Part shown: one piece after another, positions 2,466 through 14,061 of the stretch
How positions within the stretch are numbered: the stretch's first letter is position 1
How the letters are laid out: each line of letters begins with the position of its first letter
IMG/VR virus record: IMGVR_UViG_3300024520_000462
Span: 1 to 25,296 of that record
Source: a virus
Direction: 5' to 3' (one strand)
Length of the DNA: 25,296 bases
Translations under genes and position numbers: made by a program
Notes under the pieces: generated by a model
What the model was told of the DNA's origin: nothing
The model's input: the letters and a program-made list of their open reading frames with translations, nothing else
Database searches by the model: none

Positions 2466-2517
2466 AATCGGTCTGTTACCCCTTGACGTTACGGGTAACG
2501 TGGTTATGTTACCAGTA
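2466..2517 (+). promoter_or_regulatory. Promoter/operator copy 1, leaderless start
   Basis: TTGACG (2483-2488), a 16-nt spacer and TATGTT (2505-2510) form a good sigma70-type promoter. The spacer contains the palindrome GTTACGGGTAAC (2488-2499), and further GTTAC copies lie at 2475-2479 and 2508-2512, overlapping the -10, as expected for a regulator site. Only 6 nt separate the -10 from the ATG at 2517, so transcription should begin at or next to the start codon. The 52-bp element recurs at 5674-5725 with 5 mismatches. Confidence 0.75.
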
Positions 2518-3122
2518 TGAACACGAACGAGAGAGCAAAAGCCATCCGCAAGGAACTCCGCGCCAAGTTGGGCGCGACCTCGCGCGACATCAGCGTCAGG
2601 AGCGACAAATACAGCATGGGCGCGACGATCTACGTCAAGATTAAGAGCGCCGACTACAGCCTCGAGGCGGTCAAGGAAATCGCCGAGAGCCACGCGAGCA
2701 TCCGCCGCGACAGCTTCGGAGAAATCCTCAAGGGTGGAAACGTGTATGTCAGTGTCGACTACACCGCCGAGGCAATCGCGCCGTTGGTCGATGAGCTGCA
2801 GGAAAAACTAGTTTCGGTTTATCGCTCTGGCGAGACTGTCGAAATCAAGGGCTTGAGCTGCCGCAATGTAGAAGACGGCCACAACGGATTCGGCGGTCTG
2901 GAATACTGGGAAGCGCTCGATGCGAACGGCGAAGAAATCGTTTTCACCTACGGCTTGGCGAGCATCGCCCGCCAGTTGGCCGAGAAGTTCTGCAGCGGAT
3001 ACACCGCACCCAAGAAGACCGAGAAGACCCGCCCCGCGCTGCGGCTCGTAACTGAGACCGCGCCGGCCGCACCGACCACCAACACGCAAATCGAATTTCT
3101 CTCGCACCTAGGGATCGTCTGA
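2517..3122 (+). CDS. LPD29-like domain protein, probably leaderless
   Basis: The 201-residue product starts KAIRKELRAKLGATSRDISVRSDKYSMGATIYVKIKS when read in short pieces; the pattern of a basic helix, the SVRSDKYSMG segment and a following IYVKIKS strand resembles the large polyvalent protein-associated domain LPD29 seen in phage and mobile-element proteins. The family name is from memory of the pattern, so moderately certain. Residues 60-100 repeat a helix-strand arrangement (VKEIAESHASIRRDSFGEIL, then GNVYVSVDY). The C-terminus is Pro/Thr/Ala-rich and probably flexible. No Shine-Dalgarno is visible because the ATG lies directly after the promoter. The stop overlaps the next start as TGATG. 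Confidence 0.75.
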   Translation: MNTNERAKAIRKELRAKLGATSRDISVRSDKYSMGATIYVKIKSADYSLEAVKEIAESHASIRRDSFGEILKGGNVYVSVDYTAEAIAPLVDELQEKLVSVYRSGETVEIKGLSCRNVEDGHNGFGGLEYWEALDANGEEIVFTYGLASIARQLAEKFCSGYTAPKKTEKTRPALRLVTETAPAAPTTNTQIEFLSHLGIV

Positions 3123-5511: not shown

Positions 5512-5547
5512 CGGCGGGCCCCTTAGCGCCACGCTACGCAGAGGCTC

Positions 5548-5653
5548 GAGGGGCATGCACCCGGGTGGCTCCCCCTCCATGAAAATGAGCCCAGCAGGCT
5601 CCGGAGAGCGGCAAATGCCAATCCAGCCCCCGAGTCTCAGGGGGTCGAGACTC
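5548..5653 (+). other. Hairpin-forming intergenic segment
   Basis: This part of the 5512-5915 gap contains GAGGGG (5548-5553) with CCCCTC (5572-5577), and two mutually exclusive hairpins: CCCCC (5627-5631) with GGGGG (5640-5644), and GAGTCT (5632-5637) with AGACTC (5648-5653). No run of T follows, so it is not a standard intrinsic terminator. It could end or process the upstream transcript. Confidence 0.4.
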
Positions 5654-5673
5654 TGGCCGGATAATCGGTCGGA

Positions 5674-5725
5674 AATCGGCTTGTCACCCCTTGACGTTAC
5701 GGGTAACGTGCTTATGTTACTAGTA
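5674..5725 (+). promoter_or_regulatory. Promoter/operator copy 2
   Basis: Matches 2466-2517 at 47 of 52 positions. TTGACG (5691-5696), a 16-nt spacer and TATGTT (5713-5718) are intact, as is the palindrome GTTACGGGTAAC (5696-5707). Here AGTA is followed by AGAGAGGG rather than by a start codon, so the transcript should begin near 5725 with a leader of about 190 nt. An extra ATAATCGGTC lies upstream (5661-5670). Confidence 0.75.
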
Positions 5726-5767
5726 AGAGAGGGGAGACACCCCGACCCCCCGCCGGCCGGATAGCCG

Positions 5768-5893
5768 AGGCCCTGAGAGGGGTTGCTCACGGTGCTACGC
5801 CGGTGGCCGGCTTGCAGATTACTCAGGCCGACCCCAAAACCCGGAGACTAAAAGTGCGACTCCGGGCACGTGAGCAACTCCCTCTGAGGGCCT
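5768..5893 (+). ncRNA. Structured leader: long stem with two internal hairpins
   Basis: Bases 5768-5791 can pair with 5869-5893 over 23 base pairs, interrupted by one bulged base (5879) and one G-G mismatch (5775/5886). The enclosed 77 nt contain GCCGG-TGG-CCGGC (5799-5811) and a 7-bp hairpin CCCGGAG/CTCCGGG (5840-5846 with 5860-5866, 13-nt loop), giving a three-way junction. It starts about 43 nt after the predicted transcription start of promoter copy 2, and its 3' arm ends 12 nt before the AAGGAG of the next gene. It matches no riboswitch or ncRNA I know. A small inverted-repeat element is an alternative, although no flanking target duplication is visible. Confidence 0.55.
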
Positions 5894-5915
5894 ACACCCC
5901 AAACAAGGAGCCAGC

Positions 5916-6146
5916 ATGGCGACCAGCAACACTTTCGACAGCATCAGCGTTAACCTCGAAACCGGCGCGATTAGCTACCCGGAAATCGAAGGCTTCGAGC
6001 TGGACAAAGAGCGAGTGTATCGCTCAGCCGAACGCTTCTTGCCTCACTGCAACGGCTCGCTGGAGATGGCAGTGAAACACGCGATTCACGAGCAAATCAG
6101 CGCCTACAAAGGGCTGCGGTCCACGCTCGCCAGCCTGAACGGCTGA
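5916..6146 (+). CDS. Hypothetical 76-residue protein
   Basis: ATG 5916 follows AAGGAG with 5-nt spacing. The product starts MATSNTFDSISVNLETGAIS and continues with helices (DKERVYRSAERFLPHC, MAVKHAIHEQISAYKGL). It shows neither signal peptide nor Cys motif beyond a single Cys. No family is recognised. Expression is probably governed by promoter copy 2 and the structured leader, so it may be an early or regulatory product. An overlapping frame beginning at 5803 is less likely because it would be translated through the stem. Confidence 0.65.
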   Translation: MATSNTFDSISVNLETGAISYPEIEGFELDKERVYRSAERFLPHCNGSLEMAVKHAIHEQISAYKGLRSTLASLNG

Positions 6147-6157
6147 CAGAAAATTCT

Positions 6158-6239
6158 CGACTCGGAGCGGTCAGCTGCCGGCGGCGCCCCGCTCCAATGA
6201 GTCATCGCCGGCATTTCAATTCCCGCGGCTCTCGAGTCG
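6158..6239 (+). promoter_or_regulatory. Foldable leader of the DUF932 gene, possible pseudoknot
   Basis: GGAGCGG (6164-6170) pairs with CCGCTCC (6189-6195). Within its loop GCCGGCG (6177-6183) can pair with CGCCGGC (6206-6212), which would form an H-type pseudoknot. An outer CGACTC (6158-6163) can pair with GAGTCG (6234-6239). The segment fills most of the 118-nt gap before ATG 6265. Shine-Dalgarno AAAGG lies just downstream. Confidence 0.4.
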
Positions 6240-6264
6240 CATCCCGACGAAAGGTAACAACACC

Positions 6265-7083
6265 ATGAGCAGCATTTTACTCGGCAATTCCGACACCGTC
6301 ACACGCGCGATGGTCGAGGCTGTGCCACTTCCCGAGCGCACGCGCAGCTACAACCCCGTCGCTTATGGCGACGCGATCGACTTTCTCCACGAGACGATCG
6401 CGGACAAGCTCGCTCTGCCGATCATCAGCGAGACTTACGGCCTGAACAAGAAGGGCGACCAACTGTTCGCGCTGGCTACGCTCGATACGGGCGAAGGCGA
6501 GAGCGGTCTCAGCATCGGGCTCCGTCAGAGCTACAACAAGAGTCTCGCTCTCGGGGTAGCGGTCGGCTCTCGAGTCTTCGTTTGCGATAACCTCTGTTTC
6601 AGTGGAGACGCTTTCATGGTGGTTCGCAAGAACACCACCAACGTCTGGGACGACTTCAAAGCTCTCGTCGCTGCGCAGGTAGCTGGGGCCCTCGGCCATC
6701 ACAGCAACATGCAAGCCGACGTTGCCAAGCTGAAGGCGACCGCATGCAACATGCGCCGCGGCTACAGTTTCCTCGGAGTCATGCAAGGCGAAGGGCTGCT
6801 GACCCCGACACAAGCCACGGTCGCTTTCGGCGACTGGACTACCCCGCGCCACGAAGAGTTCGCCGACCGGAATATGTGGGGTCTCTACAACGCGATCACC
6901 GAGGGGCTCAAGAAGGGTGCCCCGGCTCGCACCATCAACCGCCACGCTGGCGCGCACAGCTTCATGCTCTCGATGTGCAAGGATGCTCGCCCCAGTCGGC
7001 CTAGCGCACCGACCGAGCCGAGCTCTGACGGCGACAGCTACACCCGAGGCGGTTCTGGGATTCAGTGGTCACGCAGCAACTGA
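6265..7083 (+). CDS. DUF932 phage/plasmid-like protein
   Basis: The 272-residue product matches the pattern of DUF932 proteins found on phages and plasmids: a long N-terminal half with strands and the segment SIGLRQSYNKSLALGVAVGS, then VFVCDNLCFSGD, followed by a helical stretch with MRRGYSFLGVMQGEGLLTPTQ and WGLYNAITEGLKKGAP when read in pieces. The biochemical function of the family is not established. The last ~35 residues are Ser/Pro/Gly-rich and unlike the core. It stands alone between a foldable leader and two downstream hairpins, so it is probably the end of the promoter-copy-2 transcript. Confidence 0.85.
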   Translation: MSSILLGNSDTVTRAMVEAVPLPERTRSYNPVAYGDAIDFLHETIADKLALPIISETYGLNKKGDQLFALATLDTGEGESGLSIGLRQSYNKSLALGVAVGSRVFVCDNLCFSGDAFMVVRKNTTNVWDDFKALVAAQVAGALGHHSNMQADVAKLKATACNMRRGYSFLGVMQGEGLLTPTQATVAFGDWTTPRHEEFADRNMWGLYNAITEGLKKGAPARTINRHAGAHSFMLSMCKDARPSRPSAPTEPSSDGDSYTRGGSGIQWSRSN

Positions 7084-7092
7084 CCTCGAGCA

Positions 7093-7122
7093 AGCTCGGG
7101 AGGCTCGAGGGCTTCCCGAGCT
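7093..7122 (+). terminator. Hairpin after the DUF932 gene
   Basis: AGCTCGGGA (7093-7101) pairs with TCCCGAGCT (7114-7122) around a 12-nt loop, 10 nt after the DUF932 stop. No T run follows, so this may be a stabilising or pausing hairpin rather than a full terminator. Confidence 0.4.
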
Positions 7123-7192
7123 CCGTCTGTTCGCGTCAGTGTCGAAGCTCTGGTAGCTTGGTCTCAGCAGTCGTTTGAACCGTTCGTCGGGA

Positions 7193-7228
7193 GCCCCCGT
7201 GATCATTTTGATCTACGGGGGCTTTTTT
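7193..7228 (+). terminator. Strong rho-independent terminator
   Basis: GCCCCCGT (7193-7200) pairs perfectly with ACGGGGGC (7215-7222), extended inside by GATC/GATC (7201-7204 with 7210-7213), and is followed directly by six T (7223-7228). It separates the regulatory/DUF932 region from the virion operon. Confidence 0.9.
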
Positions 7229-7245
7229 CATTTATCCTGCCCGCC

Positions 7246-8004
7246 ATGACGGCCAAGAAAAAGACGAGCAAGAAGACACGCAGACGCACCCGCAAGCAGC
7301 CGAAGGCTCTCGAGACTCCATCGGAGACCCTCGAGCCTCCGCCGGCGGAGCTCGAGGCAGCAGAAGCGGCACCCGCCGACGCAGCACAGCCCGATCCAGA
7401 ATCTACGGCGACGAAGGAAATCGATAAGCCGGAGGACGAGGAAGCGACCAAAGCGGCGACTGACGATTTTGCAGCATCGGTCAAGGCCGACGCGCTGAAG
7501 AAGCGAGAGGCAGCCGCGACCAAGTCAGGTAGCAACGGCAAGAAGAAGCCAGCGCGACCCCCTCATCGGCGCGCGCAGCCCAAACCGCTGATCCGTGCTT
7601 TCCCGAGCGAGATGAGCACCGATATTTCCCGCAGGGCTGCCGAGATCCGACACGCTGGCGGCAAGGGTCCACCGCCCCCGTCCAAGGAGAAGACTCCGCG
7701 CGGTAGGTTCGGCGCGGTCGGCGACACGATCTTGTGTGCGAACCACAAATGCGATCGTCGACTGCTCGAGGATGGGACGCACGTTTGGGCTTTCGACAAT
7801 CCGCCGCGGCACGGTTACGAAAAGGGAAGTTGCCTCTGCACAACTTGTGCGTCGGACTTTCATCCGACGATCGGGCGACGCTGGGCCTCGATCTATGAGA
7901 GGCTCAGCAAGCGCTACGGCAGCAAGGAGGCAGATCGTGTCAGCCTCGGCAAGGCCTATCGAGGTGGCGCGCTGAGAACAGCCAACGTTTCGCGAATGGG
8001 TTGA
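7246..8004 (+). CDS. Lys/Ala/Glu-rich protein with C-terminal Cys module
   Basis: The 252-residue product has a very basic N-terminus (KKKTSKKTRRRTRKQPK), then about 80 low-complexity residues rich in Ala, Glu and Pro, a second basic patch near residues 98-112, and an ordered C-terminal half. That half contains CANHKC and CLCTTC around 163-206, which together could form a zinc site, followed by a helical basic tail. The family is not recognised. It is the first gene of the virion operon, immediately before the portal, where Mu-type phages usually have terminase genes; it does not look like a terminase. No Shine-Dalgarno precedes ATG 7246. Confidence 0.7.
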   Translation: MTAKKKTSKKTRRRTRKQPKALETPSETLEPPPAELEAAEAAPADAAQPDPESTATKEIDKPEDEEATKAATDDFAASVKADALKKREAAATKSGSNGKKKPARPPHRRAQPKPLIRAFPSEMSTDISRRAAEIRHAGGKGPPPPSKEKTPRGRFGAVGDTILCANHKCDRRLLEDGTHVWAFDNPPRHGYEKGSCLCTTCASDFHPTIGRRWASIYERLSKRYGSKEADRVSLGKAYRGGALRTANVSRMG

Positions 8005-8008
8005 GATT

Positions 8009-13577: not shown

Positions 13578-13620
13578 GCCGGGGGTCGGGTAACAAGAAT
13601 CAGGGATCGGTGGTGTTGTT

Positions 13621-14061
13621 GTGTCGCAGTATGCGAGCGTTCTGGACTTCGAGACGATCGGTCTGAAGATCGCCGCGCTGCAGAACGTCAAGGACAACAA
13701 CGTCACCGAGTTCCTGATCAAGACGAGCGGGATCATCGACAGCTACCTGCGAGCGAATCACACGCTGCCGCTCACTGGTGCGCTCGGTCCGCCCAACACT
13801 TTTCCACCCGAGATCATCGCGGCGACAGTATGTATTGCGCGCTACAAGCTGATGGTCTGGCGAGGGTTCGCACCGGACGAACTCGACACCAACTTGCGCG
13901 ACAGCTTCGAGGACTGCATGGCGTGGCTTCGCGATCTCGCGAAGGGCGTTGCATATCTCGATGCGGGCGACGATGCGACGGTCGAGTACGAAGCGCGGCC
14001 GCGCGTCGATACGAAACCACAGAGGGGCTGGCTCGAGCTACTCGACGAGGCCAACAGCTGA
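13621..14061 (+). CDS. DUF1320 protein (Mu gp36-like)
   Basis: The 146-residue product has the DUF1320 pattern: a long helical fold with IIDSYLRANHTLPL near residue 38, PPEIIAATVCIARYKL near 62-77, and a C-terminal MAWLRDLAKGVAYLD. Members are head-tail connector (adaptor) proteins, placed after the capsid gene in Mu-type clusters. The start is GTG 13621; no ATG fits. The stop overlaps the next ATG as TGATG. Confidence 0.85.
   Translation: MSQYASVLDFETIGLKIAALQNVKDNNVTEFLIKTSGIIDSYLRANHTLPLTGALGPPNTFPPEIIAATVCIARYKLMVWRGFAPDELDTNLRDSFEDCMAWLRDLAKGVAYLDAGDDATVEYEARPRVDTKPQRGWLELLDEANS

Follow-up and report, generated by a model that had tools for sequence, protein, structure and literature searches.

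Why does an operon of an uncultured phage begin with a stretch of 126 nucleotides that can fold into a long, closed RNA domain? The stretch lies on the plus strand at positions 5768 to 5893 of a 25.3-kb IMG/VR virus record, the whole of which (25,296 nucleotides) was analyzed and is called the window below. The window comes from a Mu-like phage with the head genes Portal_Mu, Mu F-like, Mu-like protease, and gpT capsid. Among isolates, the closest one found is Myxococcus phage Mx4, whose portal protein is 33% identical and whose capsid protein is about 40-42% identical. At 5512-8008, no terminase gene lies ahead of the portal gene, where the relatives L005, L007, and Mx4 have one; this region of the window carries the p76-DUF932 unit described below and a lysine-rich ORF. 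Elsewhere in the window, a C5 cytosine methyltransferase gene at 407-1260 is divided between two frames, 407-1000 and 766-1260, while the same protein is encoded by one 287-aa ORF in L007. A frameshift or a sequencing error probably accounts for the split. There is also a small ORF for a collagen-repeat, lipoprotein-like product at 1610-2035.

Is the fold real in a statistical sense? The initial annotation described an imperfect 23-bp stem with one bulge and one mismatch enclosing two G/C-rich hairpins, and this description was reproduced. The closing helix (5768-5791 with 5869-5893) consists of 23 Watson-Crick pairs, a G5775/G5886 mismatch, and a bulged U5879. Inside it, two hairpins are solid, one with a 7-bp core of CGGCUUG and CAGGCCG (5802-5835) and the other consisting of CCCGGAG, 13 nucleotides, and CUCCGGG (5840-5866). 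An additional weak hairpin of 4 bp (5791-5801) is present in the minimum free energy (MFE) structure and absent from the centroid. The loops of the branched core are 4 and 13 nt in length. The MFE of 5768-5893 is -76.3 kcal/mol, compared with a shuffle mean of -46.1 (z -7.80), and none of 200 shuffled sequences folded as well. The fold also persists when the transcript is lengthened to 5720-5935 (z -4.83) or to 5725-5945 (z -5.21), again with 0/200 shuffles in each case.

A family-wise helix test was performed over the whole window, counting only Watson-Crick pairs and allowing at most two defects and a distance of at most 150 nt between the outer paired residues. The closing helix was the best helix of the window, and at least 23 pairs were found in 0 of 3,533 dinucleotide-shuffled windows, the shuffle maximum being 22. 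When G-U pairs were allowed, about 7% of 2,219 shuffled windows reached 23 pairs. Thus, the number of pairs is ordinary by that count, and the strength of the stem lies in its G/C-rich, wobble-free pairing. The structure exceeds what chance pairing gives, as the initial annotation had supposed. The complementary strand folds equally well (z -7.8), so the strand assignment rests on context; the stretch also folds strongly as DNA (z -6.1). Among 1.93 Mb of fetched loci, helices of at least 20 Watson-Crick pairs were found in six (L097, L174, L178, L128, L115, and L085), of which L097 had been preselected by the stem pattern and L174 and L178 share one element. The window itself has another long helix at 13599-13718, with 26 pairs including G-U pairs (z -3.6), which spans the beginning of the gene that follows the capsid gene. 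This helix may hide the GTG start codon of that gene, or it may be a product of chance.

The context points to a 5′ leader. A promoter/operator module is located upstream on the same strand (5672-5727), with a -35 hexamer TTGACG (5691-5696), a 16-nt spacer, and a -10 hexamer TATGTT (5713-5718). From the position of the -10 hexamer, transcription is predicted to start at about 5725, which is 43 nt ahead of the stem, the same distance as that first proposed. The predicted leader is thus 191 nt in length (5725-5915). A good Shine-Dalgarno sequence, AAGGAG (5905-5910), lies 11 nt past the stem and, as had been noted, serves a 76-residue ORF. This ORF (p76; 5916-6146) is an ORFan of 76 codons and is followed by a gene for a DUF932 protein (6265-7083; PF06067, 35.4 bits against a cut-off of 23). 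A strong intrinsic terminator with a GC-rich stem and TTTTTT (7191-7228) ends the operon, and a late-gene ORF begins 17 nt past it, at 7246. The predicted promoter, ribosome site, and terminator, all on the plus strand like the two genes, support a two-gene, operator-controlled operon of p76 and DUF932. For p76, neither a sequence relative nor a fold match nor an RNA-binding relative was found. Its third-position G+C content is 0.77, like that of neighboring genes, and a single-sequence AlphaFold model has two helices and a small beta part (pLDDT 83.6), which together suggest that p76 is a real protein.

The promoter overlaps in its -35 hexamer and spacer with a 16-bp palindrome, ACGTTACGGGTAACGT (5694-5709), of which 0.02 matches are expected by chance. 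This palindrome is a probable operator. A half-similar sequence, TTACTAGTAA, is located at 5717-5726. It was revealed that the window has a second copy of the promoter (2483-2510, plus strand) with the identical palindrome (2486-2501), and that about 60 bp around the palindrome are largely repeated at 2466-2520. This near-copy independently supports the promoter at 5691-5718. The predicted start of the second copy coincides with the ATG of the ORF at 2517-3122, whose message would be leaderless. Both copies diverge directly past the start site. Since they diverge there and the promoter at 2483-2510 has no leader, the structured leader is specific to the operon and not part of the promoter module. 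A scan of IMG/VR for the promoter palindrome returned five matches, two of them promoter-like, and the leader accompanies none of the five. The two promoter-like matches, in L101 (at 5466) and in L103 (7265-7283, minus strand), are TTGACGTTACNNGTAACGT promoter-operators in unrelated phage contigs. They suggest a common, widespread operator of the repressor type.

Does the RNA belong to a described family? The initial annotation had recognized no riboswitch class in it, and the Rfam 15 covariance models bore this out, with no match at the gathering score and no hit within 5768-5893 even at a cut-off as loose as E <= 5. ARAGORN found no tRNA or tmRNA there. Searches of phage and plasmid records and of the fetched loci, as well as IMG/VR pattern scans for the stem, the promoter, and the loops, turned up nothing related to the RNA in sequence; records near-identical to the window may be absent from this set. 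The loop-3 pattern gave no match. The closing-stem pattern gave chance matches, one in a coding frame (L097) and one in an unrelated phage (L098), and a 21-nt match in L045 is also a matter of chance, lying in the coding sequence of a tail-sheath-like ORF. A covariance model (R1), built from the single sequence and so able to see near relatives but weak for distant ones, was searched against 44 sources and 40 phage records, against 10 genomes, and against 297 genomes from a single phylum; only the window and chance-level matches were returned. Searches with DUF932, p76, and the portal protein found no close relative. In a capsid alignment covering 80 viral and 14 genome loci, p76, the DUF932 gene, and the RNA were present in none.

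What might such a leader do? The initial annotation offered a phage regulatory RNA, an attenuator, or a cis-acting sensor. A structured 5′ leader outside the described RNA families is what stands of this interpretation. An attenuator is not supported, because no U-tract follows any of the leader hairpins between 5725 and 5915. A switch at the ribosome site, such as a translational riboswitch or a thermometer, is not supported either, because the Shine-Dalgarno sequence and the start codon are predicted to pair almost alike in all states of the helix. In partition-function folding, their pairing is nearly unchanged for transcripts from 5725, 5880, or 5894. By predicted energies only, the Shine-Dalgarno pairing is similar for the full helix, for a helix cut at 5870 or at 5880, for a leader lacking it, and for one with the 5′ arm blocked; small shifts at the ribosome site appear with the cut at 5870 and with the blocked arm. 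Folding prediction also indicates a possible early pairing of the 5′ arm, while the RNA is being transcribed, with a C-rich segment at about 5744-5749, which the 3′ arm then displaces. The transient pairing may be incidental in so GC-rich a sequence.

I favor, tentatively, a site for RNase III-type double-strand cleavage and/or message stability that acts in cis in the 5′ leader; this reading is possible and far from assured. The minimum duplex target reported for RNase III of E. coli is 22 nt (PMC5371410), and the enzyme of the host may differ. The closing helix, with 23 Watson-Crick pairs, makes about two helical turns and is just above this minimum; it is thus a nearly continuous duplex of the size (at least 22 bp) seen in RNase III-processed leaders. 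Cleavage in the 5′-UTR destabilizes the rnc and pnp messages of E. coli and stabilizes its yajQ message, and RNase III sites are listed in phages lambda, T7, and T3 (PMC5371410). It is this combination, a wobble-free duplex of sufficient length and known 5′-UTR sites that alter stability in both directions, that favors a cis-acting processing or stability element. The closing helix would be cut or bound after transcription, and this would determine how long the p76-DUF932 message lasts and what it yields. Cleavage would free an mRNA with a short leader, whose ribosome site would be little affected. The independent folding of the domain from the ribosome site, as modeled, would suit such a role, as would an apparently operon-specific leader in a unit closed by a strong terminator. 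On the other hand, the inner branched domain exceeds what cleavage needs, and the nearest DUF932 relatives (L112-L114) seem to manage without such a leader. The known processed leaders (rnc, pnp, and yajQ, and those of lambda, T7, and T3) likewise carry a long helix upstream of the ribosome site. No sequence kinship between them and the window RNA was found; in the latter, a branched domain of 126 nt is enclosed by the helix, and cleavage is putative.

Alternatively, the leader might serve to make the domain itself: cutting of the closing helix would set free a stable small RNA that functions in trans or as a decoy. This would fit a domain that folds on its own, apart from the ribosome site, and has a branched core closed by a long helix. 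Unrelated structures with long closing stems also occur in non-coding DNA of two more distantly related DUF932 phage contigs (L128 and L174). However, the domain has no terminator of its own, the message runs on into the genes, and no sequence relative turned up anywhere searched. I consider a small RNA rather unlikely.

Is there then an RNA class linked to DUF932, a frequent phage protein of unknown function? The homologs in L112-L114 are 57-68% identical, and the 300 nt upstream of their genes contain helices of at most 13 pairs and no R1 match. A DUF932-linked class is not supported by these close homologs. In L128, an intergenic element directly upstream of the DUF932 gene (2818-2968; z -7.6) has a perfect closing helix of 28 bp and holds a T-arm-like hairpin, UAGGGUUCGACCCCCUA, and a C-rich/G-rich stem. 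I take this layout to resemble that of a permuted tRNA-like Y RNA, while ARAGORN, Rfam, and TROVE searches of the element were negative. The multi-branched element shared by L174 and L178 (1470-1634) has a helix of about 20-26 pairs and a z of about -7 on both strands, and it lies 1.4 kb ahead of the DUF932 gene, in an extended region without coding sequence. These elements have a long closing helix near DUF932, as in the window, but their sequences are unrelated; neither similarity to the window RNA nor an R1 or Rfam match was found. A structured stretch of about 115-121 nt is also present in DUF932 contigs of another group (L132 at 1909-2029 and about 14 related contigs). Its stem has a few changes on both sides. 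The 12 aligned sequences are 96% identical, and the stretch lies within a radical-SAM-like ORF (motif CLYNCSYC), so it was rejected as a conserved RNA. The inverted repeat of L115 resembles a pair of operators within a region of divergent promoters. Since most DUF932 loci have no such element and the L132 group lies in coding sequence, the association of DUF932 with RNA is only a lead. It is very unlikely that the DUF932 operons of unrelated phages (the window, L128, and L174) each have their own branched RNA with a closing helix of 20-28 bp, convergent or fast-evolving, released by RNase III, and working with DUF932. Bacterial Y RNAs (in Deinococcus, and YrlA) have 5′ and 3′ parts that pair as a closing stem around an inner domain, a general layout common to the window RNA. 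A Y RNA in the window was nevertheless rejected; the window, possibly a fragment record, has no Ro60/TROVE gene, and the RNA has no T-arm-like loop and no match to the Rfam Y RNA.

Feedback control of the operon in cis, through binding of a ligand or of a protein such as p76 to the leader, is unlikely. The branched core of the leader, whose loops measure 4 and 13 nt, lies beside the first gene, and that gene encodes a small, confidently modeled ORFan. Yet the accessibility of the ribosome site hardly depends on the fold, the leader has neither a U-tract for transcription attenuation nor an Rfam riboswitch, and p76 lacks an RNA-binding relative.

Quite unlikely is an RNA antiterminator like put of phage HK022, by which polymerase would read through 7191-7228 into the late genes. 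As with put, a structured RNA lies early in a phage transcript under operator control, with a terminator further on, here a strong one 17 nt ahead of the late block. The put RNA is about 70 nt in length and consists of two side-by-side stem-loops (PMC9378689), whereas in the window a single helix of 23 pairs closes a 126-nt junction. Moreover, a separate late promoter may exist further inside the late region.

That the stretch acts only as DNA, as what is left of a mobile inverted repeat or as a protein-bound or cruciform palindrome, is improbable despite its equally strong folding on the other strand and as DNA, since it lies exactly within a leader, the stem edges carry no target duplication (flanks ATAGCCG and ACACCCC), no second copy was found in the window, the 1.9 Mb of fetched loci, or phage or plasmid records, and an integron attC site is rejected by a reversed core order and an unmatched GTTRRRY.

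If expressed, the cis-acting element favored here would be a phage leader RNA without an Rfam counterpart. The operon would share its promoter with a leaderless gene, and the two would form a natural pair with which the contribution of a structured leader could be tested. The structured leader may also offer a handle on DUF932.
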